Source of the DNA: Sphingobium sp. HWE2-09
GTDB taxonomy: Bacteria; Pseudomonadota; Alphaproteobacteria; Sphingomonadales; Sphingomonadaceae
Assembly: GCF_035989265.1 (NCBI RefSeq)
Contig: NZ_JAYKZX010000001.1
Coordinates: forward strand, 1-64,000
Length of the DNA stretch: 64,000 bases
Reading direction: 5' to 3'
A program made the translations under genes and the position numbers. The notes under the pieces were generated by a model. It worked only from the letters and a program-made list of their open reading frames with translations, was not told the DNA's origin and made no database searches. Numbering within the stretch: the first letter of the stretch is position 1; every line of letters begins with the position of its first letter. Positions 7,195 to 62,002 of this stretch are shown here, piece after piece.

Positions 7195-9062
7195 ATGAGC
7201 CTGCAATTCGGCATCGCCACCGTATCGCTCAGCGGCACGCTGGAGGAAAAACTCCGCGCCGCCGCCACCGCCGGGTTCGATGGCGTGGAGATTTTCGAAA
7301 ACGACCTGATCGCTTCGCCGCTGCGCCCGCGCGAAGTCCGCGCGATGCTCGATGATCTCGGCCTGTCCTGTATGCTCTACCAGCCGTTCCGTGATTTCGA
7401 AGGGATGCCCGGTGCCATGCGCCAACGCGCCTTCGATCGGGCGGAGGCCAAGTTCGACCTGATGGGCGAACTCGGTACGCGCCATATCCTGGTCTGCTCC
7501 AACTGTTCCCCCACGCGCTGGGCGAACGCAACCGCATCGTCGCCGACTTTCAGCAACTGGGCGAACTCGCCGCCAGCCGCGACATTATCGTCGGCTATGA
7601 AGCACTCGCCTGGGGCCGCCATGTCTTCGACCATCGGGACGCCTGGGCGATCGTGGAGGCGGTCGATCATCCCAATGTCGGCATCATCCTCGACAGTTTT
7701 CATTCCCTCTCCCGCGGCATTCCCAGCGACAGCATCCGCGCTATCCCCGCCGACAAGATCGCCTTCGTCCAATTGGCCGACGCGCCGAAACTGGATATGG
7801 ACCTGCTCTACTGGAGCCGCCATTTCCGCAACTTTCCAGGGCAAGGCGGCCTCCCGGTCGAAGCCTATGTCGCGGAGATATTGGCGACCGGCTATACCGG
7901 CCCGCTCAGCCTCGAAATCTTCAACGACCGCTTTCGCGGCTGGTCCGCTGATCTGATTGCCGCCGATGGCCTGCGATCGCTGCGCCACGTCGAGGATGCA
8001 GCGCTGCGTCTGCTTGATCGGCCGACCGCCGCGCCACCACCGCCGCCCCATGTCCACCCCGAATTTGTCGAATTTGCCGTCGGCGACGCGGATGTCCCTG
8101 CGCTTGAAGCGATGTTCGGATCGCTCGGCTTCGTACGGACCGGCATCCATCCGACGAAGGCGGTCAGCCGCTGGCAGGCAGGCGCTGTCAATCTCGTCAT
8201 CAACGCCGAACCGCACGGTTTCGGCCACGACTTCCACCAGACCCACGGACCATCCATCTGCGCCGTCGGCCTTGTCGTGCCGGATCGTGACGCCGTCGCC
8301 GCCCGCGCCGCGCATCTGGGTATCCGCGCGGTCGATGATCATGACGCGCCGGGCAATTTGGCGTTCCCCGCCCTGCGCGGCATCGGCGGCAGCCTTGTCT
8401 ATCTCGTCGGCGCGAACGAGGTCGGCGCGATGTGGGACGCCGAATTTACCCCAACAGGCGGGGTCCATGACGATGCGCCGCTCGCCATCGATCATCTGGC
8501 CGCCGTGGTGCGGATCGAGGAATATCTGTCCTGGCAACTCTATTGGCGCGCACTCTTCGGCCTTCAGCAAAGTTTCCAGGCCGACGTCATCGATCCTTCG
8601 GGCCTGGTCTTGAGTCAGCCGCTACAGTCGTCCGATGGCGCCTTGCGTATTACTCTCAATGCATCCGAAGCGCTCGGCACGCTCTCGTCGCGCTTCGTCG
8701 AACATAATCTGGGCGGCGGCTATCAGCATATCGCCCTGGCGACGCCGGACCTGTTGGCAACGGCCGATCGCATGGTCGCGAAGGCCGCCGACATCCTGCC
8801 GATCCCGGCCAACTATTATGACGATATCGCGGCGCGCTTTGGCCTGGACGATACCCGCCGCGATGCTTTGGCGCAGGCGGACATTCTCTATGATGCTGAC
8901 GGCGTTGGCGATTATCTCCAACTCTACAGCCGCGCCTTCCGCAAGCGCTTCTTCTTCGAATTTGTCGAGCGCCACGAGTATCAGGGCTATGGTGCCCCCA
9001 ATGCCAGCATCCGGCTCGCATCGCAGGAACGCTATAAATATGCGGCGACGGTGATGGATTGA
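7195..9062 (+). pseudogene. quiC: QuiC-type 3-dehydroshikimate dehydratase / HPPD-like fusion, frameshifted
   Basis: The product has an N-terminal TIM-barrel sugar-isomerase-like domain (3-dehydroshikimate dehydratase; DGVEIFEND, NVGIILDSFHSLSRG, PLSLEIFNDRF) and a C-terminal 4-hydroxyphenylpyruvate-dioxygenase-like domain (HLAAVVR, YQHIALATPD, FFFEFVERH). This is the architecture of Pseudomonas QuiC1, which makes protocatechuate from 3-dehydroshikimate. The frame breaks at a C5 tract, 7508-7512. Before it the frame reads ILVCSNC; after it the other frame reads ALGERNRIVADFQQLGE. Adding one C gives a continuous 622-residue protein. The start has GGAGGA at 7180-7185. With aroE just upstream it completes shikimate to protocatechuate. 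Because four other genes break in the same sequence context, a consensus error is more likely than true loss. Confidence 0.8.
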
Positions 9063-9095
9063 ACCTTGAAGCAGGATGTCTTTGTTTCGACCCGT

Positions 9096-9193
9096 CGGTT
9101 CGAGCGCAGTCGAGCAGCTGGCACCGCCATACCCAGCTCTACTAGCACCGCCAGGCTCAGCTTTGCCTCATGTCTCGGCTTCGCTCAAAACGG
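9096..9193. repeat. REP-like imperfect inverted repeat
   Basis: Left arm CGGTTCGAGCGCAGTCGAG (9096-9114) and right arm CTCGGCTTCGCTCAAAACGG (9174-9193) are imperfect reverse complements across a spacer of about 60 bases. The TTCGAGCGnAGTCGAG core resembles dispersed repeats of sphingomonad intergenic regions. It sits between two convergent genes and no gene is visible in the 239-base gap. Confidence 0.45.
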
Positions 9194-9301
9194 ACCCCAC
9201 ATGATGTCCCAACATTAATCCATCCTGCGCCATGGGCGCGGTGGGACAACAGCGCGGGCGGTATTGGCCGCGCCACCCGGCAGGATGGCGCGATATCGGC
9301 G

Positions 9302-24213: not shown

Positions 24214-25502
24214 GCTGGTGGACGACCGACGAAACCCATGATCCCACCCGCACCAGTTGGGTGGACAGCGCCCATGGTCATGGCGACTTCCCGATCCAGA
24301 ACCTGCCCTTCGGCGTCTTTTCGCCGCCGGATGGACAGGCCAGGATCGGCGTTGCCATCGGCGACCATATTCTCGACCTGTCCGGCCTAGATGCGATGCT
24401 GCCGATGGCGGGCGACACCTTGCAGGATAAGGATTTGAATACGCTGTTCGCCTTGCCCGCAACCCAGCGGCAAAGCCTGCGGCGCGCCATCAGCGCCTTG
24501 CTCAGCGACCCAGTGATGGAAGCGACAGTGCAGCCGCATCTGCATGAAGCGGCAGGGTGCGACATGCATCTGCCCGCGCGCATCGGCGACTATACGGACT
24601 TCTATGTCGGCATCCACCACGCCAATAATATCGGGCGGCAATTCCGTCCGGGCAATCCATTACTGCCCAATTATAAATATGTGCCGATCGGTTATCACGG
24701 CCGCGCTTCGTCGATCCGCCCGTCCGGCGAACCGATGCGCCGCCCTTCGGGTCAACGCAAACCGCCAGAGGCTGATGCGCCGCTGTTTGGTCCTTCGACC
24801 CGGCTCGACTATGAACTGGAACTGGGCGTCTGGATCGGCCCCGGCAACGCCTTGGGCACGCCCATCCCGATCGCACAGGCGGCCGACCATATTGCAGGCT
24901 TCTGCCTGCTCAACGACTGGTCGGCACGCGATTTCCAGGCATGGGAATATCAACCGCTCGGCCCCTTCCTGGCGAAGAATTTCCAAACCACCATCTCCCC
25001 TTGGGTCGTGACCGCCGAAGCCATGGCGCCCTTCCGCATCGCCCAATCGCCCCGGCCGCAGGACGATCCCGACCCCTTGCCCTATCTGTCCGACGCTGCG
25101 GACCAGGCGCATGGCGCGCTCGGCCTCACGCTCGAAGTGTTGATCCAGACGGCAGCCATGCGCACACGCGGCGACGCACCCATGCCGCTCAGCCACGGCC
25201 CGGCCAGCAACATGTATTGGACCGTACAGCAAATCCTGGCGCATCACGCATCGAACGGCTGCAACCTCAATCCCGGCGATCTGCTCGGCACCGGCACCAT
25301 TTCCGCGCCGGATGCGTCGGGCTATGGCAGCCTGATGGAATTGTCGATGGGCGGCAAGCAACCGATAGCGCTCCCCGGCGGCGAAACCCGCACTTTCCTG
25401 GAGGATGGCGACGAGATCATTCTGCGGGCGACGGCGTCGGCATCCGGTTTCGTCCCGATCGGCTTTGGCGAATGTCGCGCCATGGTGACACCGGCGCTTT
25501 GA
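24210..25502 (+). CDS. fahA: Fumarylacetoacetase
   Basis: A 430-residue hydrolase splitting fumarylacetoacetate into fumarate and acetoacetate. The N-terminal SH3-like domain ([12 protein letters not shown]) precedes the FAH barrel: [17 protein letters not shown] with the metal Asp and catalytic His, [11 protein letters not shown] with two metal Glu, [21 protein letters not shown] with the metal Asp, and the GTISAP, GSLMELS segments. It ends the phhA-hppD-hmgA-fahA operon. A maleylacetoacetate isomerase is not found beside it and must lie elsewhere or be replaced. Its last 86 bases overlap the 3' end of the convergent glycosyltransferase gene. Confidence 0.96.
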
Positions 25503-26640
25503 GCGCCGCGTCATAAGCGGCGACCAGCCGCGCGAAATGCGCATCTTCGTTGAAACGCGCCACGACATCGGCATGACCCGCTGCCCCCAGCCTGCGACAG
25601 AGCGCCGGATCATCCCACATCCGGCGCATCTGCCGGGCAAGGTCTTCCGCGTCGCCGGGCACGAAATGCAGACCCGTCCGATCCTCGCGCACCGTATCGT
25701 TCAGCGCGCCGATGCGCGATGCGATCACCGGCACCCCATGCGCCATGGCTTCGGCCGCGACGATGGCAAAGGTTTCGAACCACAGGCTCGGCACCACCAA
25801 TGCCCGCGCCCCGCGATAAAAGCGCGCAAGCAATTCCGGGCCATCGGTGATCGTCACCGCCACGCCCTGCGCCCGTAACGGCGCCGGGTCGTTGCCCTTC
25901 GGCCCGGCGACATGGACCGGCAGCCCACTGATGCGCGCTGCCTCGATCAGCACCGCCAGCCCCTTTTCCGGCACGAAGCGCCCGGCAAAGGCGAAATAGC
26001 CACCCTGTGCCGGATCGACCGGGTCGGGCGCAGCGGGAATGGCGCATTCATTGACGCTGATCCGCTCGATCGGGATACCCGCCTGGCGATGCAGCCAGCC
26101 GCGGCTGAAATCGGTCAACACGATGAAGCGGCTGACATGACGATAAAGACCGCGCCCATCCGCCACCGCATGACGCAGCGCAAAGGCCGCGTTTTCCGGC
26201 AAACTGCCGCGGCAATTGCGCCGCAAAGCCTGTTGCGCACCCTGGTCGATGCAGCGCGTGCAGACGCCGACGCCATCATGATGCGTGGCGATGGGGCAGG
26301 TGATACGGAAATCATAGCAGCTATGCACCACCGGAACCCCCGCCCGTGCGCAGAGCGTGAGCAGCCAGGGGGTCAGCAGAGGGTAGAGTTCATGGCTATG
26401 GACGATGTCGGGCCGCTCCTGCGCCAGCCGCCGGGCAAAGGCGCGCAGCGTATCGACCGGGTAAAGCCCATGGGCAAAAGCGCTGACCTTCCCCGCCAGA
26501 CCCGGCGCCAGATGGCGGCTATCCCGTTCGAAGATCGCCACGTCCAACCCCCGACGCCGTGACAGCGCGATCGTCGCGTCCCACGCATTGTCCGCCCCGC
26601 CACCGCCGCGATGCCGGTTGAAGACGTGCAGGATCTTCAT
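25417..26640 (-). CDS. Glycosyltransferase family 4, exopolysaccharide locus
   Basis: A 407-residue GT-B glycosyltransferase. N-terminal Rossmann half: MKILHVFNRHRGGGGADNA, RPDIVHSHELYPLLTPW. A cysteine-rich insert (HSCYDFRITCP, GVCTRCIDQG) is typical of a subset of GT4 enzymes. The C-terminal nucleotide-sugar half has FAFAGRFVPEKGLAVLIEA and PSLWFETFAIVAAEAMAHGVPVIAS with the E-x7-E motif. It is the last gene of the leftward polysaccharide operon; its start overlaps the previous stop. The final 25-30 residues are low-complexity and lie antisense to the end of fahA, so the native stop may have been lost. Donor and acceptor unknown. Confidence 0.88.
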   Translation of the reverse strand: MKILHVFNRHRGGGGADNAWDATIALSRRRGLDVAIFERDSRHLAPGLAGKVSAFAHGLYPVDTLRAFARRLAQERPDIVHSHELYPLLTPWLLTLCARAGVPVVHSCYDFRITCPIATHHDGVGVCTRCIDQGAQQALRRNCRGSLPENAAFALRHAVADGRGLYRHVSRFIVLTDFSRGWLHRQAGIPIERISVNECAIPAAPDPVDPAQGGYFAFAGRFVPEKGLAVLIEAARISGLPVHVAGPKGNDPAPLRAQGVAVTITDGPELLARFYRGARALVVPSLWFETFAIVAAEAMAHGVPVIASRIGALNDTVREDRTGLHFVPGDAEDLARQMRRMWDDPALCRRLGAAGHADVVARFNEDAHFARLVAAYDAALKAPVSPWRDIRQSRSGRNRMPTPSPAE

Positions 26641-27839
26641 GCCACCTTCGCGGGCGACGAACGATCCGGTGCATATGTCTCACCGATCAGCGCACTGGAC
26701 GGCCGCTGCCCCGCCGCCTTCAGCGCGATCAGCCGCTCAAACAGCGCGGCATAGGCGTCGATCACCGCATCCCAGCGAAAGGTGGCCGCGGCGTGCGCCT
26801 GCGCCGCCCGACCGAGTGACACGCGGCGCGCCGGATTGGCGTCCAGATCGCACAAAATCGCCGCGAGATGGCCCGCATCCTTGCGGAAATAGGGATTATC
26901 CGGCCCCACATTCTCCCGGTGGAAGATCACGTCGATCGGCACGCATGGTGCCCCCCAATGCATCGCCCGCAACAGGCTCGGGTTGGTCCCGCCCACCTCA
27001 TGCCCGTGCAGATAGGCGGCGCAATGGCGATAGAGCGCGTTCAGGGCCGCGGACTCGAACACCCCGCCGACGCAGCGCACCTGCCCGTCATCCTCGGCCG
27101 CGACGGCGCGGGCATAGGCGCTGTCATAGGGCACCGATCCGACAACGATCAGCGGCTTGGCGAGCCCCGATGCGCGATATTCGCGGATGATATGGTCGAC
27201 ATTATTCTCTGGCTCCATCCGCGCGACGACCAGATAATAGTCGCCCGACGTAACGCCATAACGGGCCAGCGCCGCATCGTCCGGCAGATCGCCCACCGCG
27301 CCGCCATAGGGGATATAGGTCGATCCCGCGCCATATTCGCGCGCATAATAATCCTGCATCGCGCGCGAATCCGTGACCAGCCAGTTGGCGAGGCGCGCGC
27401 TGACCCATTCGGACCACTTATAATAGCGCCGCTGGACTGCATTCCATTTGCGCCGTTGCCATCCCAGCCCGTCGGTATGGATCACCACCGGCACGCCCCG
27501 TGCGCGCAGCGGCAGAATGAAAGGGCCATTGCCCGGATCGACCAGGAAGACGAGGTCGAAATCCCGGCAAGCCGCGTCCAGCACGGCCAGGTTGCTATGC
27601 ACGATGCTCTCGAAACTCTTGCCGCCCGGCGCTGGCAGGTAACGGCATCGCACCCCCTGCCAAACGGGTGGATGCGCCACATAATATTGGCTGCGGCAAT
27701 AGACGGTCACGTCCATGCCATGGTCGCGCACCAGCCCCACCGCCAGTTCCTCCACCAGCGTGGAAAAGCCGCTATAGCGGGCGGGGATGCCGCGATCGCC
27801 GATGATCGCGATGCGCAAGGGGCGGGCGGGATCAGCCAT
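26637..27839 (-). CDS. DUF1972-type glycosyltransferase (rhamnosyltransferase-like)
   Basis: A 400-residue glycosyltransferase with the N-terminal DUF1972 domain (LRIAIIGDRGIPARYSGFSTLVEELAVGLV, residues 6-35) followed by a GT4-like C-terminal half (YLVVARMEPENNVDHII, HEVGGTNPSLLRAMHWGAP). Proteins of this type include rhamnosyltransferases of capsule and exopolysaccharide assembly. The start is ATG 27839, overlapping the upstream stop by 8 bases (ATGGCTGA), and its stop overlaps the next gene. It probably adds a sugar to the lipid-linked repeat unit on the cytoplasmic face. The donor sugar is not certain. Confidence 0.88.
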   Translation of the reverse strand: MADPARPLRIAIIGDRGIPARYSGFSTLVEELAVGLVRDHGMDVTVYCRSQYYVAHPPVWQGVRCRYLPAPGGKSFESIVHSNLAVLDAACRDFDLVFLVDPGNGPFILPLRARGVPVVIHTDGLGWQRRKWNAVQRRYYKWSEWVSARLANWLVTDSRAMQDYYAREYGAGSTYIPYGGAVGDLPDDAALARYGVTSGDYYLVVARMEPENNVDHIIREYRASGLAKPLIVVGSVPYDSAYARAVAAEDDGQVRCVGGVFESAALNALYRHCAAYLHGHEVGGTNPSLLRAMHWGAPCVPIDVIFHRENVGPDNPYFRKDAGHLAAILCDLDANPARRVSLGRAAQAHAAATFRWDAVIDAYAALFERLIALKAAGQRPSSALIGETYAPDRSSPAKVA

Positions 27840-30285
27840 GGGGCTTGAACCCCAGCCAGACATCCTGCGTCATGCGCGCGTCGAGACCGGGCCGGACCTG
27901 CTCGACCCGCTCGAACGCAGCGAGCAGATGGCTGCGGACCCAGGCCGGGGGATGGATGGCGAAATACCATTTCTTGCCCTCGGCAAACCGGCTCTGGGTG
28001 ACGATCTCGCCGCGGTCATAGGCTTCCGCCTCGCGCCTCTGGGTCAGCAGATAGCGATAATGATCGCCATGGGTGGTCGCGATCATCAACCCGCCGGGCC
28101 GCAACACCCGGTGGAGTTCGGCGGTCCAATCCCGATGCATGTCCTGCGACAAATGGGTGAAGACCGAAAAATTATAGACCGCATCGAAACTGCCGTCGGG
28201 GAAGGGCAGGGGCGGCGCCAGCCCATTGAGCGCGAAGGCGATGCCGGGCAGATGATCGCGGCACCAGTCTATCGTCGCGGGATTATAGTCGCTGCCGGTC
28301 AGTTCGGGCGACCGCCCGGCCAACAGCGCAGGCATATGCCGGATCAACCGCCCCGGCCCACAACCCCATTCCAGCACGCGCAGGGACGGCGCATCTGGCA
28401 GATGGGTGCGGATCAACCGTGCGAACAATGCCGCATGGGCCAGCCCCATGTCATGATAATCCACCCAATCGACTTTGTTATAGGCGTCGAAAGCCAGGTC
28501 TTCGGGAGGCACTGCGAAATCGGGATGCCGCACGCGAAAGGCGCGATTGCCACGCGCCGCCCGCGCCCGCTTGCGCAGGAACGCCATGCGATCGAACATG
28601 GGCAGCAGGCCTAGGGATCGGGTGGCGCTCAATATGTGATATTTCATGGATCTACGCCTTCTCATGCGGGTGGGGGAGGGCAGGTCGAATAGGCGGCGGA
28701 CATAGGCCGGATCCTGTCCGACGACGGCGATCAGCGGAAACGGCGCGTCCGGCTGGCTCAGGCGGAACCGGTTGGCGCGATCCTGGACGATGTCGACCAG
28801 CACCGCCGCGACGACGCCTGCGCCTAGGCCCATGATGATCGCGGCGATCAGCAGCATTTTGGTCTGCGGCGCATCCGGCTTGTCGGGCAGGGCCGCGCCT
28901 TCCACGATCTGAATGGCCGACGGCGCCGACTGGGCGGTGGCGGCCGTGACCGCCGCGGTCATCAACTTGTCCTGCAACGCCAGATAGGTCTTTTCCAGCA
29001 CATCATGGGTCCGGCCCAGATCATGGCTGTCCTTCATCTTCTGCGGAATGCGGTCGATCACGCCGCGCCGCGCCGCGCCCTCCGCCGACAGCGCGATCAG
29101 GCTCGCGCGATCGCCCGCCAACTGCGCTTCCAGCGCCGCCCTGCGCGCGCGCAGCGCGTCATAGCCGCCATTGCGCGCGATGCTGCTCTGCTGCACCCCG
29201 CGCCTGGGCTGGCCCGCCAGTTGCCGTCCGATCGCCGCAATCTGCGCATCCATGTCGCGCACGTCGGGGGATTCCGGGCGATAATGCACCAGCAGCGCGT
29301 CACGCGCGGCGACCAGCTTGGCCTGCTCCTGTTTCAGTTGGGCCGTCACCGGATTATCTTGGACCAGTTGGCTCGCCACTATATCCTTCGGCTCCCGCGC
29401 CAGCTGCGCGGTGACGGTCGCCAGTTCGCTCTGCCCCGCTGCGATCGCCGTGCGCTTGGCGTCCAGTTCGCCTTGCTGACTCAGATATTGGCCGATCTCG
29501 ACCTTGTCCTTTTCGAACATCAGCAGCATGTCGTTCTGCGTGTAATAGCGCTCCATCCGCGTTTCGAGCGCGCGCAGGTCGGCACGGGCACGGTCCGCCT
29601 CGGTCTGGAGCGACGCATAAGCCTGCCGCGCTTCGCTGGCGAAGCGGGCGCGGCGTTGCGCGATATAGGTGGCGGCGACCCTGTCGGCGATCTGCGCCAC
29701 GCGCGGGCTTGGGCCGCGCACGGTCAGCAGGCCGATATGGCTGTCGGGCAGCTGCGTCATCGCCACCCCGGTGCGGAAATCATCCAGCGTCCGGGCGCGC
29801 TCCACCTCCCTTTCCGTCGCGACATAGGGCGATGGCGCAGTCGGAAACAGCGCCGCCTTCGTTCCCCGCCAAGCGCGCCCGGGCCAGCTTTGCGTCCACA
29901 GCCCCGTCATATATCGCAGCGGCGGATGATAGACGTCGCCATAGCCCAGATTAAGATCGGCGATCACCTGCTTCAAAACCGGGCCGGACGTCGCCAGAAT
30001 CATTTCGTCTTTCAGCGCAATGTGGCGAAACACGGCCCAGTCGTCATAGAAGCTCTCCCGCTGGCGATCGTCGTCCGATACCGCCGACAGGGTGACGCTG
30101 GCCGAATAGACCGGCGGCCAGACGATGATATAGAGGCTCACCAGCGCCAGCGTCAGCAAGGTCACGGCCAGGATCAGGCGACGATGCCCTGCAACCGCAA
30201 AGGCGACGATATGGCCCGCCCGGCGGAAATCGAAGCTGTCGGCCTCCGGGCGGTAAGGCACGGCTTCGGGTGCAGGGGGCGTCAT
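27832..30285 (-). CDS. Wzz-like chain-length protein read through into a SAM methyltransferase
   Basis: As written, one frame encodes 817 residues. Residues 1-546 are a polysaccharide co-polymerase: TM1 at about 35-55, periplasmic coiled coil at about 200-420 (EARQAYASLQTEADRARADL), TM2 at about 478-500 (MLLIAAIIMGLGAGVVAAVL), no kinase domain. Residues 547-817 are a class I methyltransferase (VLEWGCGPGRLIRHMP; HRVLRPGGLMIATTHG). The join falls at a G5 tract, + strand 28672-28676. One more base would end the first protein at TAG 28652-28654 after 544 residues and leave the methyltransferase to start at ATG 28647 behind AGAAGG. Two separate genes are therefore likelier than a true fusion. The first sets chain length with Wzy; the second probably methylates a sugar. 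Confidence 0.8.
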   Translation of the reverse strand: MTPPAPEAVPYRPEADSFDFRRAGHIVAFAVAGHRRLILAVTLLTLALVSLYIIVWPPVYSASVTLSAVSDDDRQRESFYDDWAVFRHIALKDEMILATSGPVLKQVIADLNLGYGDVYHPPLRYMTGLWTQSWPGRAWRGTKAALFPTAPSPYVATEREVERARTLDDFRTGVAMTQLPDSHIGLLTVRGPSPRVAQIADRVAATYIAQRRARFASEARQAYASLQTEADRARADLRALETRMERYYTQNDMLLMFEKDKVEIGQYLSQQGELDAKRTAIAAGQSELATVTAQLAREPKDIVASQLVQDNPVTAQLKQEQAKLVAARDALLVHYRPESPDVRDMDAQIAAIGRQLAGQPRRGVQQSSIARNGGYDALRARRAALEAQLAGDRASLIALSAEGAARRGVIDRIPQKMKDSHDLGRTHDVLEKTYLALQDKLMTAAVTAATAQSAPSAIQIVEGAALPDKPDAPQTKMLLIAAIIMGLGAGVVAAVLVDIVQDRANRFRLSQPDAPFPLIAVVGQDPAYVRRLFDLPSPTRMRRRRSMKYHILSATRSLGLLPMFDRMAFLRKRARAARGNRAFRVRHPDFAVPPEDLAFDAYNKVDWVDYHDMGLAHAALFARLIRTHLPDAPSLRVLEWGCGPGRLIRHMPALLAGRSPELTGSDYNPATIDWCRDHLPGIAFALNGLAPPLPFPDGSFDAVYNFSVFTHLSQDMHRDWTAELHRVLRPGGLMIATTHGDHYRYLLTQRREAEAYDRGEIVTQSRFAEGKKWYFAIHPPAWVRSHLLAAFERVEQVRPGLDARMTQDVWLGFKPHG

Positions 30286-31034
30286 CGGTCGATCTCCTGC
30301 AACAGGCGCAACTGGACATAAGGCGCCATCAGCGCGGTCAGGCCGCCCAGCGGTGCGTTGACATAGGTCTGGAGAAAGCGAGCGAACCGCGCGCCGCTGC
30401 TTTCCTGCACGACGATGATGTCGCCGGGACGCAGCGGCACATTCTGCAACGCCAGCATCATGCCCGCATGGCCACGCCCACCACTGCGCAGGATATGGGC
30501 GGTCAGATGGCCGCTCTCATCCAGCCGGATCAGCGCCACATTGGACAGCGCCGCCCCCTTGCCCGCATCCCCCGCCAGGATCAGCGCCTGTGCGGCGGTT
30601 GGCGCGTCGCGCAGCGCCACCGCGCCGGGCCGGTTCACCTCGCCCGCGACGAAGACCTTGGCCTCGCGCGGATTGGCAACGGCAATGCTCACCTGCGGAT
30701 CGCGCACCCGCGCCAGCAGCCTCTCCCGCACCACGTCCGCCGCCGCCATCGGGGTGAGACCTGCGACCGCGATGTCGCCCGATCGGGGCAACGTCACCAT
30801 GCCATCGACGCGCACGGTCGCGCTGCGCGACAATTCGGGCATATGGTCGACCATGATGTCCAACTGGTCGCCGGGACCGAGCAGATAGGCCGCTTCATAG
30901 CGCGCCGTGGACCGGATCACCTCCGGCGCGGCGACGATGCTCTGCGGCGTGCGCAGGCTTGGCGAACAGGCGCCCAGCAGGATGGAGATCGGCAGCAACG
31001 CCGTAAACAGGCTGATGCGCGGCGCAAGGCTCAT
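30282..31034 (-). CDS. Polysaccharide export outer-membrane lipoprotein (Wza/GumB-like)
   Basis: A 250-residue protein beginning at ATG 31034, which overlaps the upstream stop (ATGA) and gives a lipoprotein signal with lipobox LLGAC. The mature part has the Poly_export domain (YLLGPGDQLDIMV, VRVDGMVTLPRSGDIAVAGLT) and a SLBB-type domain (KVFVAGEVNRPGAV, VPLRPGDIIVVQES). It should form the outer-membrane channel through which the polymer leaves, with the Wzz-like protein encoded directly after it. The length is short for Wza and nearer to GumB/ExoF-type proteins. Confidence 0.92.
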   Translation of the reverse strand: MSLAPRISLFTALLPISILLGACSPSLRTPQSIVAAPEVIRSTARYEAAYLLGPGDQLDIMVDHMPELSRSATVRVDGMVTLPRSGDIAVAGLTPMAAADVVRERLLARVRDPQVSIAVANPREAKVFVAGEVNRPGAVALRDAPTAAQALILAGDAGKGAALSNVALIRLDESGHLTAHILRSGGRGHAGMMLALQNVPLRPGDIIVVQESSGARFARFLQTYVNAPLGGLTALMAPYVQLRLLQEIDR

Positions 31035-31957: not shown

Positions 31958-31967
31958 TAAGATGCGC

Positions 31968-32945
31968 TCAGAAGAAATGGCGGTGCGCCTTGTACCAGAG
32001 GAAGGTCTGTCCCAGCCGCTCGTCCAACCCCGCGCCCGGCGACCAGCCCAGCTTCTGCGCCGCCAAGGCAGACGACAGATATTGCGCCTGGATTTCGCCA
32101 TGGGCATGATTGCGCACATCGGGTTCCAGGTCGGTACGCCCGGCTGCCAGCAGCGTGCGGCGGGTAAGGTCCAGCACGCTTACCGGTTCGCCCGTCCCGA
32201 AATTGAAGGCGCGACCCACCACGCCCTCGTCACCCATATGCTGGGCCAATAACAGGTAGCCGCGCACGATATCCTCGACGAACACATAGTCGCGCACCGG
32301 CGACCCATCCGACCGGATGACCGGCCGCGCCCCGTCGATCGCGGCGATGCAGGTGCCCGGCACGATGCGATTGCTGTTAAGATCGCCCGGCCCGAACAGA
32401 TTGCCGCAGCGGGTGATGGCGATGGGCAGGCGATAGGTCTGCGCATAGCTGAGTGCGATCAGGTCGGCGCAGCTTTTCGACACGTCATAGGGATGGCGCC
32501 CCTGCAACGCGAAATCCTCTTGATAGGGCAGGCTGTCATGCTCCCCATAGGCCTTGTCGGACGAGGCAATGACGATCCGCTCGACCGTCGCCACCCGGCG
32601 ACACGCCTCCAGCAGCACCCATGTGCCCTTGATATTCGCTTCGAAGGTGGAGAGCGGATTGCGATTGGCGACGCCGACGATCGCCTGCGCGCCCAAGTGA
32701 AACACGCTATCGACCGCATATTCGTTCAACGCCCGTTCGATGACGTCATAATCCTCCAGCGCGCCACGCACCACCTTGGCGCGGGTTGCCAGGCCATCGG
32801 CCTGGAAGCGCGACTGCGGCACCATGTCGCGCACCAGCGCCACGACTTCGGCCCCCTGCGCCAGCAATTCCGCGACCAGGCTTCCGCCCAGAAATCCCGT
32901 CGCGCCGGTGACCAGGCAGGTCTTGCCTTTCCAGAAGCCGCTCAT
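31968..32945 (-). CDS. rfbG: NAD-dependent sugar dehydratase, CDP-glucose 4,6-dehydratase-like
   Basis: A 325-residue extended short-chain dehydrogenase: CLVTGATGFLGGSLVAELL (NAD-binding Gly motif), VFHLGAQAIVGVA, SSDKAYGEH in place of the usual catalytic Ser/Thr stretch, and the Tyr-Lys pair in HPYDVSKSCADL. The SSDKAYG segment and the adjacent cytidylyltransferase-like gene indicate CDP-glucose 4,6-dehydratase, producing CDP-4-keto-6-deoxyglucose. The ATG overlaps the upstream stop. No CDP-sugar epimerase or 3-deoxygenase follows, so the end product is unknown. A GDP- or UDP-sugar enzyme cannot be fully excluded. Confidence 0.8.
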   Translation of the reverse strand: MSGFWKGKTCLVTGATGFLGGSLVAELLAQGAEVVALVRDMVPQSRFQADGLATRAKVVRGALEDYDVIERALNEYAVDSVFHLGAQAIVGVANRNPLSTFEANIKGTWVLLEACRRVATVERIVIASSDKAYGEHDSLPYQEDFALQGRHPYDVSKSCADLIALSYAQTYRLPIAITRCGNLFGPGDLNSNRIVPGTCIAAIDGARPVIRSDGSPVRDYVFVEDIVRGYLLLAQHMGDEGVVGRAFNFGTGEPVSVLDLTRRTLLAAGRTDLEPDVRNHAHGEIQAQYLSSALAAQKLGWSPGAGLDERLGQTFLWYKAHRHFF

Positions 32946-33663
32946 GCCGCGCGCTCCTCTGGTTTCTGATGGCCGATCCAGGGCGGCGGCATGCCCCCTG
33001 CCAGCAGTTCGTCCGCTTCGATCACATCCTTGTAGCTGTCGAACGACTTGAAAAAGCCGTCATGGCGATAGGTGAAGGCGTCCCCCGCGCGATCAGCGGC
33101 GGGATGATATCGCGCTCCAGATTGTCGCCCTGCCAGTCACTGAAGATGGCCGGGTCCATCACCATGAAACCCGCATTGATCCAATAATCGGCGATCAGCG
33201 GCTTCTCCGCGAACCGCGCGATCGCGCCGTCATCTTCGACCGACAACACCCCATATTGCGACACCATCGGCACCGACGTGATCGTCAGCCGCGCATTATG
33301 ACCGTGATGAAACGCTACGACATCGGCCAACGGCACGTCCGACAGCCCATCGCCATAGGTCGCGATAAAGGGGCCGTCGATCAGATGACGACAATTCCAG
33401 ATGCGCCGCCCCGTATCGGCATTCTCCCCGGTATCGACGATCTTGACGCTGGCGCCGATATCCTTCCCCTCGAAATAATCGTGGAGAACATCCTGCCTAT
33501 ATCCTGCCGCCAGGATGAATTCATGAAAGCCCTGGCGAATGAAATTCTTGATCACATGGACCAGCACCGGCGTGCCGCCCAATGGCAGCATCGGCTTGGG
33601 CAGATAGGTGGTGAAGGGAAAGGCGCGGATGCCCTGCCCGCCGCATAATATGACGACTTTCAT
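32942..33663 (-). pseudogene. rfbF: Glucose-1-phosphate cytidylyltransferase-like, frameshifted
   Basis: A nucleotidyltransferase with MKVVILCGGQGIRAF, YLPKPMLPLGGTPVLVHV, VDTGENADTGRRI and TYGDGLSDV, the last two characteristic of RfbF (CTP:glucose-1-phosphate). ATG 33663 overlaps the preceding stop. The frame breaks at a C5 tract on the + strand, 33082-33086: as written the protein ends early in LIARGTPSPIAM. One more base gives ARGDAFTYRHDGFFKSFDSY, matching the family, and a 240-residue protein whose stop overlaps the rfbG ATG. The clean operon overlap supports a sequence error over true decay. It would supply CDP-glucose to RfbG. Confidence 0.78.
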
Positions 33664-34757
33664 CTGTCGGTTCCTTTCGTCTTGGTTGGCATGAACTGGT
33701 CGAGGGGAAGGGTGGCGAGGCCGATGCCGAATTCCGGCCCGGCCACGCCGCGCTGGATCAGCGGGCCAAGCCGGGACCGGGCGACATGCCCCCCGAACCA
33801 GAGCTTGATCCGATCGCTGTCCCGCAAGGGACCGGGGGCCAATATCTCGCCATCGGTCCACTGCGTGCTGGCGCGCGTCAGCAGCGGCGCAGGGTCTTCC
33901 TGGAAATGCACGCCATCGGCGGACCGCGCATGGTGGATCGCCACCTGCTGCCAGGCCGGGTCCGCGCCTTTCTGCTCATGCGCCACCGAGTAGAAAAGAT
34001 CGACGCCATCCGCCTCGGCCAGTGCAGCAGGCGACGCATAACCGGCATAGCCCTGCGCGGCCGGATAAAGCGGTCCCTGCGTCAGCACCTGCGTCGGCGG
34101 ACTGAAGGTCACGCCATCGCGCGACCGGACCAGCCCAATCGATTGCAGCGGCGGCCCGCCGCCCTCCCGCGCGCCCACGGCGGAGAAATAAAGCAACATC
34201 TCGTCGCCCCGCACCGCCAGCCCCGGCTCCGCCACCAGATAGCCGTTCCAGTCGCGCGCCCCACCGGTCGCCTTGAGCAAAGTCCAGCGGGCTATTCGCC
34301 AGTCGATACCGTCGACGGAAACCGCCAGACCGATCGCCATCGGCGACGGATCGGGGTCGGCATAGACCCCGGTAAAGGCCATCCAGTACCGCCCCGCAAA
34401 GCGTGCGACGCTGGGCGTCTCGATACTGGCATAAGGGCCGCCCGCGGGCGAAAGCAGCGGCGTGTCAGGAGACAAAGTCCAATGCGCGCCATCGCGCGAC
34501 ACGGCGCGGAACGGCAGCACTGGCGGCGCGAACGGCGCGCCGGTGCTGGTCGTCATATAGAGCACATAGCCATCCGCCGTGCGCAGCAGGCTGGGGTCGT
34601 TCCACAGCCCCATTGCACGCAGCGATCCCGCGGCAATCACCGGCGCATCGCGGCTGACCGTCCAGCCCGGCATGGCACGCGGCAAATCCGGCGGCGGTGC
34701 GGGATCGGCACAGGCGGTCAGCCAGGCCAGCGCGAAAGAGGATGTGACGCCCCGCAT
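33660..34757 (-). CDS. Five-bladed beta-propeller lipoprotein (GH43/GH32-like fold)
   Basis: A 365-residue lipoprotein. ATG 34757 gives a short signal with lipobox LTAC. The mature protein has propeller blades typical of glycosidase-like families: GLWNDPSLLRTADGYVLYMT, IETPSVARFAGRYWMAFTG, VAEPGLAVRGDEMLLYFSAVG, and the late QWTDGEILAPGPLRDS. Asp and Glu at blade starts (NDPS, ETPS, AEPG, DGEI) fit the GH43/GH32/GH117-like fold, but no classical active-site set is certain. Located just after the initiating transferase gene and overlapping both neighbours, it probably acts on or binds the exported polymer in the periplasm or outer membrane. Confidence 0.75.
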   Translation of the reverse strand: MRGVTSSFALAWLTACADPAPPPDLPRAMPGWTVSRDAPVIAAGSLRAMGLWNDPSLLRTADGYVLYMTTSTGAPFAPPVLPFRAVSRDGAHWTLSPDTPLLSPAGGPYASIETPSVARFAGRYWMAFTGVYADPDPSPMAIGLAVSVDGIDWRIARWTLLKATGGARDWNGYLVAEPGLAVRGDEMLLYFSAVGAREGGGPPLQSIGLVRSRDGVTFSPPTQVLTQGPLYPAAQGYAGYASPAALAEADGVDLFYSVAHEQKGADPAWQQVAIHHARSADGVHFQEDPAPLLTRASTQWTDGEILAPGPLRDSDRIKLWFGGHVARSRLGPLIQRGVAGPEFGIGLATLPLDQFMPTKTKGTDR

Positions 34758-36511: not shown

Positions 36512-37381
36512 ATGCTGTGCATATTGGGTCATCACCGGGCCGATCCGGCGGCTGCCTGGAATGACGGCATCGGCTTTTCCCGTTGCCTGGGCTGCAACGC
36601 GTCGCTGGTGCAGCGGCCCGGCGCAGGCTGGACCCGGGTGCCGCGCGGCTATGCCGTAGTCTGGCGTCCCGTTGCTGATCGCCCGGCCCTAGGGAGCCAG
36701 GCAACGCCCACGTCGCTCGCCCGGCTCTCGCTAGGTGCGCGTCGCATCGGCGCAGCCGCAACACGGGCGTTGGACAGGGGGCAGCCGCCCGTCGAACCTG
36801 CATCGCGCAGCTATCGCTATCTGGCGCGCCGGATCGGCAGTGCGCGCACCGTCCTGCTCAGCCCCCTGTGCAACACCGACGTCGCCAACGACACGCTGCT
36901 GCTGCTGGCGGCCATGTTGCAAGATGAGCGGGGCGGGCGCCTGCTGCTGATCGACGCGACGCTGGGCGGCGATGGTATCGGCAGCCTGCTCGGCGCGCAT
37001 GGCAAGCCCGGCCTGTCGGACATCCGACCGCGCGATCCCTGGTCAGCGGTCGAAACGATGCGACTGCTGGCCCGACCGAACATGATCCTGCTGGGCGCGG
37101 GCCAGCATCCCGCCACCGGTCGGCCGGACCATCTCGCCGCGATGCTGCCGTTTCTGGCCGAACGGTTCGACCATATCCTGATCCAGCAGCGGGGCATCAT
37201 GGCCGACAGCCGCAATCTGGCGCTGGCGGCGCGCGCCGAGCTTGTCTGGACGCTGGCGGAGGAAGGGCGCTCGCCCATGCCCCGCCTGGCCCAGGCGCGC
37301 GATGCATTTCGCGCCAACGGCCTGCCCGATGTCGGCCTGATCCTGACCGTGCCCATGCCGCGATCGGCCCATGGCGGCTGA
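36512..37381 (+). CDS. Degenerate BY-kinase-like (CpsD/Wzc cytoplasmic domain) protein
   Basis: A protein of about 289 residues. ATG 36512 (behind AGAGGGGG) is chosen because the G+C-rich coding pattern begins there; ATG 36281 and 36407 give AT-rich extensions. An N-terminal segment has two Cys (RCLGCNASLV). Residues about 110-289 follow the bacterial tyrosine-kinase/MinD fold: RTVLLSPLCNTDVANDTLLLLAAML, the Walker A'-like LLLIDATLG, PGLSDIR, NMILLGAGQ and FDHILIQQRG. The expected Gly-rich Walker A is replaced by SPLCNTDVAND and there is no Tyr-rich tail, so it is probably not an active kinase. It overlaps the Wzy gene by 11 bases and may act with the kinase-less Wzz-like protein. Confidence 0.65.
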   Translation: MLCILGHHRADPAAAWNDGIGFSRCLGCNASLVQRPGAGWTRVPRGYAVVWRPVADRPALGSQATPTSLARLSLGARRIGAAATRALDRGQPPVEPASRSYRYLARRIGSARTVLLSPLCNTDVANDTLLLLAAMLQDERGGRLLLIDATLGGDGIGSLLGAHGKPGLSDIRPRDPWSAVETMRLLARPNMILLGAGQHPATGRPDHLAAMLPFLAERFDHILIQQRGIMADSRNLALAARAELVWTLAEEGRSPMPRLAQARDAFRANGLPDVGLILTVPMPRSAHGG

Positions 37382-38872
37382 GGTCGCCCGTCCTTCTGCG
37401 CTGCCCGGCGGACGCATCCTGCTGACGGCGGGCGCGGGCGGGGCGGCGGCGCTGGTCGTAGCCGCAGGCTTCGCCGCCGCGCGCGGCCCCGCGCTGGCGG
37501 CGGTCGGCATGATCGCGCTCGGCGGAGCGCTCTGGGCCAGCGGCAATCCCCAACTCGCCTGCCTGTGGGGCGTCGGCCTGACGGCACCCTTGGGCGTCGC
37601 CAAGCGATTCCACCCCATGCCGCATATGGGCGGGGCGGGCGCCTATAGCATCGAAGCGGTCGATCTGTTCCTGCTGGCGTTGTTCCTGTTCCAGTGGCGC
37701 GACCGGGCGCGGGGGAGGGCGCACTGCCCATGCCCACCGTGGCGCTGTGCTGGATGGCGATGATCCTGCTTGGCCTGATCGACGCCATCACCGGTCCCTA
37801 TCGCCAACTGGCGCTGGTCGAAGCGGTGCAGATGACGAAGTCGCTGGCGCTGTTCCTGCTGCTGCTGGGCGAACTCACCCGCGTGCCCCGTTTCCTCCAC
37901 CTCTTCGCATCGCTCGCCTGCGGTCTGCTGCTGCAGGCAGGCGTCGGCCTCCTGCAATATGCGAAAAAGGGCGATATCGGCCTGCAATTTCTGGGCGAGG
38001 CGACGATGACCACGCTCGAATATGCCAATCGCGCAACCTATATGGATGGCGGCGCGACCTTTCGCATCGGCGGCTTGCTGGGCCATCCCAACATCCTGGC
38101 CGGGTTCATCGCCATGCTGGCCCCCATGTTGTTGGCGATGCTGCTAACGCGCCTGCCGTTCCTTAAGAAACTGGCGATCAGTGCTGTGCTGGCGATCGCG
38201 CTGCTGGCGCTGTTGCTGACCTTGTCGCGATCGGGCTGGCTGGCCTTCGCGCTGGCCGTGCCGATCGTCATCGCCCTGATGCTGCGCGATCGACGCTCGC
38301 GGCGCAGGGCGCTGGTCGGCATCGCCCTGGCCTTGCCGGTCATTCTGCTTGGCGCCATGGCCGCCGCGCCCGCGATTCTGCGCCGCTTCGCCCAAAGCGA
38401 TCCGGGGGCGACCGACTTCCGCTGGGACTGGATGGGCGTCGCCTGGGCCATGGTGCGCGACCATCCGCTCCTGGGCGTCGGCCTCAACAGCTTCGTCCAA
38501 CATCTCCCCGGCCGCACCATCCATGGCGGCGTCGAAGGCCTCAATCGCAGCTTCGGCGCGAACTGGCCGGTGGTGCACGACATCTATCTGCTGATCTGGG
38601 CCGAACAGGGCACGATCGGCCTGGCGATCTTCCTGCTCTCGCTGCTGATCCTGCTGCGCACTGCCTGGCGCAACGCGCGATGCTGCGCCAATCCGCTGCT
38701 GCACGCCCTCAATGTCGGCGCATTGGCAGGACTATGCGCCAATCTGCTCGATGGGTTCGGCAGCTTCTTTCTACGCCAGATGCCCGGCGCGCGCCTATTC
38801 TGGATTATCGCCGCGATCATCGTTGCAACCGCCGTCTGGCAACGGCGCAATAGCGGCATGAAACCGGCATGA
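37371..38872 (+). pseudogene. O-antigen ligase/polymerase-like membrane protein (Wzy), frameshifted
   Basis: Two frames together encode one polytopic protein of about 500 residues. The first carries ILLTAGAGGAAALVVAAGFA through LFLLALFLFQWRDRAR; the second continues GEGALPMPTVALCWMAM and ten or so further membrane segments, with the Wzy/WaaL-domain signature RIGGLLGHPNILAGF, LTLSRSGWLAF and HPLLGVGLNSF. The break is at the G5 tract 37711-37715, and one extra G restores the frame exactly. It begins in an 11-base overlap with the preceding gene and ends in an ATGA overlap with wzx. The protein should polymerise lipid-linked repeat units on the periplasmic face. Confidence 0.8.
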
Positions 38873-41363: not shown

Positions 41364-42340
41364 GCCAGCCAACGCTCGCCATCCTGATCGTCAACTGGAA
41401 TGTCCGCGACCTGCTGCGCGATTGTCTGGCAGCGATCGCCGCCAGCACCGGCCTGCCCGACGAGAGCGTCGAAACGATCGTCATCGACAATGCATCTGCC
41501 GACGGCAGCGCCGCGATGGTCCGCACTCAATTTCCCTGGGTCCGGCTGATCGAAAGCGGCGCCAACCACGGCTTCGCCAAAGGATGTCAGATCGGTTATG
41601 AATTGACCGACGCGCCCTTCGTCATGCTGCTCAATCCCGATACGGTGGTCGATCCCGATGCCATCGCCTCCTTGCTCGCGCAGATCGAAGGCGACCCCCG
41701 CATCGGCATCCTCGGCTCCCGCCTGCGCAATAGCGACGGCAGTTTCCAGCGCGCATCGGGCGGCGCTTTCCCCACGCTCACCAACCTCGCCTGGAACTAT
41801 CTGTTCCTGGGCGCCATCCTCCCGCGCCACTGGGCGCCGCCTGCCGTCTATCTGGCCGACGATCCGCCCGGCGTCCGCCCAATCGACTGGGTATCGGGCG
41901 CCTCGCTCACCTTCCGCCGCGCCGCCGTCGGCCCCACCATCTTCCACCCCGCCTATTTCATGTTCGGCGAGGATATGGAGCTATGCCATCGCGTCGCGCA
42001 GGCTGGCTGGCGCATCCGCTATTCCGCGCGCCAGAGCATCACCCATCATCATGGCGCCAGCTTCGCGCGCCAATCCTCGATGGAAGTGCTGGCCAGCGTC
42101 TATAAGGGGCCACGCGTCTTCTTCCGTCAGGGGCGCGGCCCCATCGCGCGGATCGCCTACGACGCCATCCTCTTCACCGGCTACGCCAGCCGCTGGCTGC
42201 TCTTCAGCCTGCTCGGTCGGCTGCGCCCCGACCGCGACTATCGCGCGATGGCGCGGTTCAGCCGCCGCTATCTGGGCGTGATGGCGGCCACCATCTTCAC
42301 GCGCACATCCACCATGCAGGGACAGGAGCAACAGTCATGA
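41360..42340 (+). CDS. Glycosyltransferase family 2 (WbbL/rhamnosyltransferase-like)
   Basis: A 326-residue GT2 enzyme with [48 protein letters not shown] (metal-binding loop), [13 protein letters not shown] and the acceptor-side [30 protein letters not shown] motifs typical of the rhamnosyltransferase-like WbbL branch. The C-terminal part is basic and hydrophobic and may associate with the membrane. It overlaps neighbours by ATGA on both sides. Confidence 0.88.
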
Positions 42341-43368
42341 ACAGGGGCATCAAACGGATATTGGTGACCGGCGGCGCCGGATTCCTCGGATCGCATCTGT
42401 GCGACCGTCTGGTGGCGCAGGGGCATGACGTGCTGTGCGTCGACAATCTCTTCACCGGGTCGAAAAGCAATCTGACGCAACTTTTGGGGCGGCCCAATTT
42501 CGAATATATGCGCCATGACGTGACCTTCCCCCTTTATGTCGAGGTGGACGAAATCTACAATCTCGCCTGCCCGGCATCCCCGCTGCAATATAGCATCAAC
42601 CCGGTGCAGACGACCAAGACCAGCGTCCATGGCGCGATCAACATGCTGGGCCTTGCCAAGCGCACCGGCGCAAAGATCCTGCAAGCCTCCACCAGCGAAG
42701 TCTATGGCGACCCGGCGATCCACCCCCAGCCGGAGGACTATTGGGGCCATGTGAACCCTATCGGCCCACGCGCCTGTTATGACGAAGGAAAGCGCTGCGC
42801 CGAAACCCTGTTCTTCGACTATCATCGCGAAGGACGGGTGCGGATCAAGGTCGCGCGCATCTTCAACACCTACGGTCCGCGCATGGACCCGGCGGACGGG
42901 CGCGTCGTTTCCAACTTCATCTGCCAGGCGCTGCTGGGCCAGCCCATCACCCTTTATGGCGACGGATCGCAGACCCGCTCCTTCTGCTATGTCGATGATC
43001 TGATCGACGGCCTGCTCCGTCTGATGGGCAGCGACGACATGACGACCGGCCCGATCAATATCGGCAATCCCGACGAATTTACCATGGTCGAACTGGCGGA
43101 GATGATCCTGGCGCTCACCGGGTCGGACTCGCCGCTCATCATGCGGCCGCTACCCGCCGACGACCCGCGTCAGCGCCGCCCGGACATCAGCCGCGCCCGC
43201 GACGCGCTGGGCTGGGAACCCACGGTGCGCCTGCGCGAAGGGCTGAGCCGCACCATCGGCTATTTCGACGCCTTGCTCAGCGGCGCGGTCAGCCCCAGCC
43301 TGCCACCCGCCATGCCGGGCGACATCATTTTGCCAATCGTCCATCCGGTCAATCGGCTGGGGGCGTGA
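42337..43368 (+). CDS. UDP-glucuronate decarboxylase (UDP-xylose synthase)
   Basis: A 343-residue extended SDR. It has the NAD-binding [19 protein letters not shown], the substrate/active-site [20 protein letters not shown], and [16 protein letters not shown] with Tyr and Lys, all diagnostic of UXS. It converts UDP-glucuronate to UDP-xylose, implying pentose or a derivative in the polymer. It is the last gene of the rightward operon and its 3' end overlaps the convergent ThuA-like gene by 20 bases. No UDP-glucose dehydrogenase is present here. Confidence 0.93.
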
Positions 43369-58964: not shown

Positions 58965-60416
58965 TCAGCCGATCTTTGGCAGCAGGCTGTCGACGGCGAC
59001 CTTGGCGTCGCCGTAGAACATCCGCGTATTATCCTTGTAGAAGAGCGGATTTTCGATCCCGGAATAGCCGGTGCCCTGGCCGCGCTTCGACACGAAGACC
59101 TGCTTGGCTTTCCATACTTCCAGAACCGGCATGCCCGCGATCGGGGAGTTGGGATCGTCCTGCGCCGCCGGATTGACTATATCGTTGGACCCGATGACGA
59201 TCACGACGTCGGTCGAGGGGAAATCCTCGTTGATCTCGTCCATTTCCAGGACGATATCATAGGGTACCTTGGCTTCGGCCAGCAGCACGTTCATGTGCCC
59301 CGGCAGGCGGCCCGCGACGGGATGGATGGCGAAACGCACATTCTTGCCCGCGGCCCGCAGCTTGCGCGTAAGTTCGCTCACGCTCTGCTGCGCCTGCGCG
59401 ACCGCCATGCCATAGCCGGGCACGATGATGACGCTGTCCGCTTCATTGAGCGCGGCGGCGACGCCATCGGCGTCGATCGCGACCTGTTCGCCCTCAATCT
59501 CTGCCGCGGGGCCGGTCGTGCCGCCAAATCCGCCCAGGATGACCGACACGAACGACCGGTTCATCGCCTTGCACATGATATAACTCAGAATCGCACCCGA
59601 CGAGCCGACCAGCGCGCCTGTCACGATCAACAGGTCGTTGCCCAGCGTGAAGCCGATCGCGGCGGCCGCCCAGCCGGAATAGCTGTTGAGCATCGACACG
59701 ACCACCGGCATGTCCGCACCGCCGATGCCCATGACCAGGTGGACGCCGATGAACAGCGCCAGCACCGCCATGACGATCAGCACCGTCACTTCGCGGCCTT
59801 CGACCCCGATGTTGCCGACATACATGACCAGCAGGACCAATGATCCCAGCAGGGCTGACGCGTTGAGGACGTGACCGCCCGGCAGCTTCTTCGCCTTGCC
59901 GTCCAGCTTGCCCGCCAGCTTCCCAAATGCGACGATCGATCCGGTGAAGGTCACCGCGCCGATGAAGATGCCCAGAAACGCCTCGACCTTGAGGATGTTG
60001 ATTTCGACGGGACTTTTATGGGCCAGAACGGCGGCGAAGCCGGTCAGCGCTTCGCGCGCGGCGGGATCGAGCGCCCGTACCGTTTCCAGTTCGAAATGCG
60101 CGTTGAAACCAATGAAGACCGCCGCCAGCCCGACGAAGCTATGGAGCGCCGCCACAAGCTGCGGCATTTCGGTCATCTGCACCCGTACCGCCACCAGCCA
60201 GCCGATGACGGCGGCCACGGCGAAGGTGCCGATCACGATCGGCAGATTGGCTGCGCCCGGCCCAAAGAGTGTTGCCACCACGGCCAGCGCCATGCCGGCA
60301 ATGCCGTACCATACCGCGCGTTTGGCGCTTTCCTGGTTGGACAGGCCGCCGAGCGACAGAATGAAAAGGACCGCAGCGGCAATATAGGCTGCGGACACCA
60401 CACCGGTATCGAACAT
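58965..60416 (-). CDS. pntB: NAD(P) transhydrogenase subunit beta
   Basis: A 483-residue membrane protein: domain II with about nine membrane segments (residues 1-280), then the NADP(H)-binding domain III ([77 protein letters not shown]). It couples proton entry to hydride transfer from NADH to NADP+. It follows pntA by 12 bases in one operon. Confidence 0.95.
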
Positions 60417-60428
60417 GGACGTGCCCCC

Positions 60429-62002
60429 TTACGACCGCTGGAACATGGCGAGCATTCGGCGCGTGACCAGAAAGCCGCCAACGATATTGATCGATGCGAT
60501 CAGGATAGAAATCGTCGCCAGCACGAGTACCAGCGTGTTTGACGATCCGACCTGGAGCATCGCCCCCACCACGATGATGCCCGAAATCGCGTTGGTCACC
60601 GCCATCAGCGGCGTGTGCAGCGCATGGCTGACGTTCCAGATGACCTGAAAGCCGATGAAGCAGGCCAGCACAAAGACGATGAAATGCGCCATGAAGCTGG
60701 CGGGCGCTACTGCGCCGACCCCCATGAGCAAGACCGCCGCCACGACCAGCATCGTCACCTGCGACCGGGTTTGCGCCTTGAACGCAGCGGTTTCCTTCGC
60801 CCGCTTTTGTTCGGGCGTCAGTTCCTCGGCCTTGGGCTTGGGCTTTTGCGCCGCGATCGCCTTGATCTTGGGCGGGGGTGGGGGAAGCTCACCTGGCCTT
60901 CAAAGGCTATGGTCGCGCCACGAATGACGTCGTCATCCATATTATGGACCACCACGCCGTCCTTGCCCGGCGTCAGGTCGGCCAGCATGTGGCGGATATT
61001 GCTGGCATACAGCGTGCTGGACTGCGCGGCCATGCGGCTGGGGAAATCGGTATAGCCGATGATCGTCACGCCATTGGGCGACACGATCTTCTGATCGGCC
61101 ACGGTGAGAGCGCAATTGCCGCCACGCTCCGCCGCCAGATCGACGATGACAGATCCGGGACGCATCGCGGCGACCATATCGTCGGTCCACAGCACGGGCG
61201 CGTCCCGACCGGGAATGAGCGCCGTGCACACGACGATATCGACGCCGGGCGCCAGTTCGCGGAATTTCTTGAGCTGCGCCTCGCGAAATTCGGGACTGGA
61301 CGGCGCGGCATAACCACCGGTCGCGGCGCCATCCTGCTGCTCTTCGGAAAAGTCGAGATAGACGAACTGCGCGCCCATCGATTCAATCTGTTCGGCGACT
61401 TCGGGCCGCACGTCGAATGCCAGCGTAATGGCGCCCAGCGAAGTCGCCGCGCCGATCGCCGCCAGGCCCGCGACGCCTGCACCGATCACCAGCACCCTAG
61501 CCGGGGGCACCTTGCCTGCCGCCGTCACCTGACCGGTGAAGAAGCGCCCGAAATTGGCGCCTGCTTCGATCACCGCGCGATAACCGGCGATGTTCGCCAT
61601 GGACGACAAGGCGTCCATCTTCTGCGCGCGAGAGATGCGGGGGACCATGTCCATGGCGATGATATTGGCGCCGGTCGCATTGATCGCCGCCAATTCTTCG
61701 CTGCGCTGGCCGGGATAGAAGAAGGAAATGAGGGTCTTGCCGGGCTGGAGGCGCGCCGCTTCGTTCGCTTCGGGCGGCCGCACCTTCACGATGACGTCCG
61801 CTTGCGCCCACAGCTCGTCCGCCGTGGGAACGACGGTCACGCCTGCGGCGCGGTAAGCATCGTCATCGAAACCGGCTGCCGCCCCGGCGCCGCCTTCAAC
61901 AAGACAGGCATGGCCCAATTTTTGCAATTGCAGCGCGCTATCGGGCGTCAGCGCAACCCGCGCCTCGCCCCCCGCCACTTCCCTGGGCGCACCGATTTTC
62001 AC
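60429..62002 (-). pseudogene. pntA: NAD(P) transhydrogenase subunit alpha, frameshifted
   Basis: Two frames together form a 524-residue alpha subunit. The first encodes the NAD(H)-binding domain I from GTG 62002 (GGGGAGGAA upstream; PREVAGGEARVALTPDS, KVPPARVLVIGAGVAGLAAIG, SPNGVTIIGYTDFPSRMAAQ). The second encodes a linker and three to four membrane segments ending ITVGG-like ([17 protein letters not shown]). The break is at a G5 tract, + strand 60880-60884: as written the frame runs into [11 protein letters not shown]; one more base gives the linker [16 protein letters not shown] continuing into the membrane part. The repaired protein is a single chain like E. coli PntA rather than the split alpha-1/alpha-2 form. 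The next gene is pntB. Confidence 0.82.

Follow-up and report, generated by a model that had tools for sequence, protein, structure and literature searches.

Frame breaks at GGGGG-A tracts in the window

Are genes that look broken at a short run of G truly broken, or only in the assembled sequence? The question is raised by the first 64 kb of contig C1 (C1:1-64000, the whole stretch of DNA analysed and hereafter called the window), where reading frames appear to break at a recurring pattern, a run of five G followed by A. A first-pass annotation had pointed out five such breaks, and at all five positions we found a G5 run then A on one strand (Table 1). For four of them the break was confirmed with orthologues, while the fifth, at 28672, is likely but unproven. 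Judged from the sequence, the breaks are most probably (probability about 0.86) a systematic error of the consensus sequence, with the DNA itself intact. The genome of 4.44 Mb comprises three contigs (1,156,749, 42,414 and 3,238,357 bases) and looks like a Sphingobium by its pntA gene in the window, whose nearest named records are from this genus (88-89% protein identity).

Frame shifts were located with a home-made Viterbi scan based on a three-periodic coding model with penalised one-base shifts. A first version without gene overlaps reported 14 shift events in the window; with overlaps of up to 90 bases allowed, 7494, 33088, 37703 and 60878 were the sole frame shifts. We then searched the DNA by tblastn with the orthologue of a close relative, looking for genes present in two frames. 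The quiC-like gene, the rfbF-like gene, wzy and pntA each matched in two frames meeting at or beside the tract, with junctions at 7509-7512, 33082-33085, 37715-37730 and 60848-60881, the last at most 33 bases from its tract. The Pfam domain AP_endonuc_2 is spread over two frames of the quiC-like gene, with an HPPD-type domain in the second frame; PF00483 was found in the upstream piece of the rfbF-like gene and PF04932 in the downstream piece of wzy. Among the wzy homologues listed with at least 66% identity (own entry excluded), 31 of 38 are 460-524 aa long and 7 are shorter. As the pieces agree with the orthologue in 75 to 93% of residues, the four genes are without other decay.

Table 1. 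Tracts and affected reading frames in the window.
Feature	Position	Strand	Basis or remark
Tract 1	7508..7512	-	GGGGG-A on - strand; inside quiC-like gene on +
quiC-like gene, frame-broken at tract 1	7195..9062	+	Pfam, Viterbi scan, tblastn
Tract 2	28672..28676	+	Wzz/methyltransferase junction; weaker evidence than for the other four
817-aa open frame, Wzz/GNVR-like and methyltransferase fusion	27832..30285	-	Domain matches, relatives' gene layout
Tract 3	33082..33086	-	Inside rfbF-like nucleotidyltransferase gene on -
Nucleotidyltransferase gene (rfbF-like), frame-broken at tract 3	32945..33861	-	tblastn, two frames
Tract 4	37711..37715	+	Inside wzy / O-antigen-ligase-family gene on +
wzy gene, frame-broken at tract 4	37371..38872	+	Homologue lengths, tblastn
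Tract 5	60880..60884	+	Inside pntA, which is on -
pntA, frame-broken at tract 5	60429..62047	-	AlaDh_PNT domains upstream, PNTB_4TM downstream

The same positions emerged from alignments with relatives. The stretches of relatives used at first gave no synteny comparison for most of the window; gene-wise searches in the relative G049 covered most of it. High-scoring segment pairs with less than 75% identity or fewer than 250 columns, clusters of more than two gaps and flanks of less than 70% identity were dropped. In the aligned 53 kb, the uncompensated frame differences common to at least two relatives' loci were the four tracts plus position 60421, which falls between the genes pntB and pntA. 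A further eight rows each rest on a single locus; they include 28660 and 28669, adjoining site 2. Tract 1 has one more base in all five of the closest orthologue loci (L195-L199), three more distant paralogue loci (L200-L202) aligning with different gaps. At tract 5 an additional base is present in each of the 11 loci aligned, which come from 5 genomes. The annotation's repair, one extra G at every break, is less certain at sites 1, 3 and 5: the orthologues there have no six-G run but one interrupted by another base, so the lost base may or may not be a G.

Site 28672 differs from the other four in that nothing is interrupted there, as the DNA reads as one open 817-aa frame, whose Wzz/GNVR match lies just under the Pfam cut-off and whose methyltransferase match is clear. 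In all three same-genus relatives examined, Wzz and methyltransferase are two separate, overlapping genes, and the frame next to the 817-aa frame has a stop overlapping an ATG at this site, which suggests the frame change. Alignment does not prove the site, since the tail of Wzz has diverged too far.

On both strands together GGGGGGA is absent from the window and GGGGGGC occurs seven times, as the annotation had reported. Its count by eye was about 15 coding GGGGGA tracts with ten in frame; we obtained 19 such runs, 18 of them coding by the scan, with four at a break and 14 not. A tRNA search and Rfam at gathering score returned nothing in the window.

Breaks elsewhere in the genome

The scan was extended to 40 stretches of 20 kb, giving with the window a sample of 864 kb (694 kb coding; L numbers denote stretches or loci). 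Events less than 150 bases from a stretch end were excluded, and an event was counted as run-associated if no more than 25 bases separated it from a G/C run of at least 5. In total 21 events were obtained, 15 with a missing and 6 with an extra base. Ten of the 15 missing-base events, and none of the six extra-base events, were at such runs. The nucleotide after the run was A in nine of the ten losses (seven runs of length 5 and one each of lengths 6 and 7) and C in one; a T-flanked run in the event table is a neighbour of tract 5 and belongs to the same event.

Outside the window, five of six run-associated losses were A-flanked, even though A-flanked runs make up 24% of the coding runs of at least 5 (P=0.0035). 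The five sites are L008:11211, L013:2355, L013:10762, L204:13139 and L220:4939. The genes affected are unrelated: a DEAD-helicase/TRCF-domain gene, a uracil-glycosylase-superfamily gene, a cytidylyltransferase gene, an Hsp33 gene and one that we take to be McrB-like from its motif. For the first four the orthologue junction lay at the run, so that in eight of eight sites tested (four in the window, four outside) the orthologue switches frame at the tract or at most 33 bases away. Of the 16 pieces of these eight genes, 12 are 83-97% identical to the orthologue and the others 73-81%, measured against the first orthologue used. The McrB-like break and the C-flanked one (L204:13139 and L004:3924) were judged by their frames alone, with no homologue among the compared loci; L204:1855, L206:16378, L213:1401 and the six extra-base events are scan calls only. 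At two outside sites some relatives display the presumed full-length run: six G at L008:11211 in two of five loci (95% DNA identity) and at L013:2355 in three of seven (81-87% identity), the other three and four being interrupted, respectively, against five G here.

By their domain matches the broken genes have no common function. Three of the five window sites do share one polysaccharide locus (about 25502-43000), parts of which match plasmid p02 of Sphingomonas sp. FARSPH (34% of a 25-kb query at 76% identity). One scan event, L013:14035, was rejected as the relatives do not bear it out, and the scan therefore has false positives. The event at L009:17878 (C1 about 617,878), where the frame differs from G049 by one base, was borne out by that relative and lies at no G5 run; other small errors or pseudogenes thus exist too.

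Dependence on the flanking A

We next asked how strictly the loss follows the flanking nucleotide. If a true length of at least six is assumed for broken runs, 9 of 27 A-flanked but only 1 of 66 C-flanked coding runs are broken (P=4e-5); without the window, 5 of 23 A-flanked runs are broken and 1 of 59 C-flanked ones (P=0.006). The breaks are also patchy: A-flanked runs with a presumed length of at least six are broken versus intact in 4 versus 0 cases in the window and 5 versus 18 outside (P=0.007). The loss in A context in this assembly is real but partial. The stronger form of the claim, a loss confined to A-flanked tracts that spares no GGGGGGA, is refuted by in-frame tracts of the very kind that the annotation had named as speaking against it: 18 intact coding GGGGGGA occur in the 864 kb and 186 copies of the motif in the whole genome. 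The absence of GGGGGGA from the window is by itself weak, with 2.7 expected and P(0)=0.07. Within C1:1-181,995, a region picked after the fact, there is no GGGGGGA where about 7.6 are expected, along with 20 GGGGGGC; these first 182 kb may be a stretch of poorer consensus, or the pattern a post-hoc chance.

The genome-wide count that the annotation had recommended gave no significant depletion of GGGGGGA compared with 60 relatives (Fisher P=0.22). The ratio of GGGGGGA to the reversed pattern is 1.03 here and has a median of 1.17 in the relatives; counted from the lowest value, this genome ranks 11 of 61. Few-contig and many-contig assemblies did not differ in this ratio (20 vs 40, P=0.47); the three lowest values belong to the few-contig assemblies G001, G007 and G067.

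The interrupted tracts of relatives at sites 1 and 3 suggested another candidate: that the missing base was a C interrupting the run (GGGGCGA), and not a G. As a general rule we rejected it: GGGGCGA shows no depletion (1347 copies in the genome; 146 in 464 kb versus about 152 expected), and a true six-G run is present in some relatives at the two outside sites. It may still apply to sites 1, 3 and 5.

As a side observation on motif composition, GCCGGC is threefold rarer in the 464-kb sample of this genome than in the relatives' stretches (400 vs 1291 expected), and CTGCAG, TGATCA and CCCGGG are commoner, which may reflect a different restriction-modification set.

Control scans of related genomes

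Seven relatives of the same genus served as control with about 1.09 Mb (347 kb from G014, G015, G002 and G013 together, 540 kb from G049, 160 kb from G007 and 40 kb from G054); the last of these controls also exclude events near N. None of their 271 A-flanked coding runs of 5-7 was broken, compared with 9 of 184 here (P=3e-4), and G007 gave no events in the 160 kb scanned. In an eighth relative, G001 (3 contigs, 340 kb scanned), breaks were found at 2 of 76 A-flanked runs and at a single C-flanked run. With G001 included the comparison is 9 of 184 here versus 2 of 347 in the relatives (P=0.002).

One of the two A-flanked breaks in G001 (L306 about 17954; C2 about 1,717,954) is at a GGGGGG-A run and divides the gene for topoisomerase I between two frames. 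Their matches to one DNA topoisomerase I model cover positions 4-575 (upstream frame) and 636-806 (downstream frame), and the frames overlap at the run. The topoisomerase I gene is usually essential, and this break is therefore likelier an error than biology. The second is at L132:19397, and neither break matched a compared locus. Loss in A context exists perhaps also in the G001 assembly. In the same assembly the pntA region occurs twice on one contig, and the second copy (L133 about 12899; C1 about 562,899) has its own frame break near a C-flanked G run.

Origin of the losses

We favour a systematic consensus error, the reading that the annotation had called the simplest, because the loss goes one way, strikes scattered conserved genes without common function, is rare in the sampled relatives and is patchy. 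The run-associated breaks have the features of such errors: they lie at homopolymers with a change of one base, the change is always a loss, and the genes have no functional tie and are otherwise intact. In what is seemingly a long-read assembly, given its three contigs, base calling or consensus building would shorten some G-runs by one base, the affected runs having a true length of six or more and mainly preceding an A; a run left one base short inside a gene would make that gene appear frame-broken. Errors of this type are on record. In three strains, G/C runs with a length of 4-10 were one base shorter in assemblies from PacBio data than in those from nanopore data, according to the consulted part of PMC11649196. 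In nanopore data, C and G runs were called worst (passages of PMC8486125), and an account of a nanopore assembly describes mostly false deletions, most of them after runs of four to five (passages of PMC12007338). One-base losses, moderate G/C runs and false frame shifts in genes that are otherwise intact are common to these reports and our case. The difference is the concentration before A, as the consulted parts of these papers give general effects of neighbouring bases and no rule for A; nor did we find a report of a deletion rule for G-runs before A in the excerpts of openly licensed literature consulted.

Several results weigh against this explanation. Besides the surviving GGGGGGA copies and the missing genome-wide depletion described above, one of the broken runs is C-flanked (127924, in an alpha/beta hydrolase gene), and with G001 included the excess over relatives outside the window is a modest one (5 of 166 vs 2 of 347, P=0.04). 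At sites 1, 3 and 5, where the relatives lack a six-G run, the contraction of six G is only presumed. The relative G049 has a broken 11-G run before A (L238:12215; C1 about 1,012,215), which falls outside the 5-7 table and hence is not part of the 0 of 271; it would be more plausible as a real variable tract than any run in the window. Finally, the dependence on a flanking A is without explanation in the literature consulted, and according to a passage of PMC8486125 the influence of neighbouring bases on the nanopore signal holds for runs of up to 5 and is far weaker in longer ones.

The best surviving alternative, though an improbable one, is that the bases are really lost, by a mutator or a slippage bias of a polymerase that shortens G-runs before A. 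It would be a strain-specific contraction directed by the flank, in which G-runs of at least six lose one base before A, perhaps through a polymerase or a base modification beside the run. The excess is indeed strongest in this genome among those sampled and depends on context, and DinB polymerases can shift the frame in runs, as the excerpted text of PMC10159617 states. The mycobacterial DinB1 of the same text, however, gives both -1 and +1 shifts, whereas none of our six extra-base events is at a run. Loss of mismatch repair would likewise shift frames in homopolymers, but the MutS frame is open here (899 aa, no stop; this concerns MutS and not MutL). Sparing of C-flanked runs is not expected from DinB-type or mismatch-repair mutagenesis, and here these runs, though more numerous, are nearly untouched. 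Moreover, pntA, Hsp33 and the TRCF-domain gene would have been lost at once without other decay. The similar break in topoisomerase I of G001, another few-contig assembly, also favours error over biology.

Less probable still is a chance collection of unrelated genuine pseudogenes and a genuine Wzz-methyltransferase fusion that have the tract in common by coincidence. The open 817-aa frame at 28672 and the five of 15 missing-base events at no such run would fit this, but nine of ten run-associated losses before A, given the 24% share of such runs, do not. Phase variation by slipped strands at contingency loci, which the annotation had raised as the exciting alternative, is the least credible: frame changes at homopolymers and the location of three of the five window tracts in an exopolysaccharide locus would suit a switching of genes, surface polysaccharide genes among them, by short G tracts, but the runs have just 5-7 G, lack conservation at sites 1, 3 and 5 (where relatives have interrupted tracts), show no gains, and break the housekeeping genes pntA and Hsp33 and the uracil-glycosylase-superfamily and TRCF-domain genes equally.

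Implications

If the losses were real after all, a context-specific mutator without description in the literature consulted would have left newly arisen frame-shift alleles among housekeeping and polysaccharide genes. If the consensus error is the true cause, some dozens of genes are wrongly read as broken in this organism, pntA and a polysaccharide polymerase among them. Extrapolated to 4.4 Mb, we estimate about 28 to 46 falsely broken genes, based on five A-flanked breaks in the outside 800 kb and nine in the 864 kb, and the A-flank rule would allow such errors to be flagged in other assemblies without reads.

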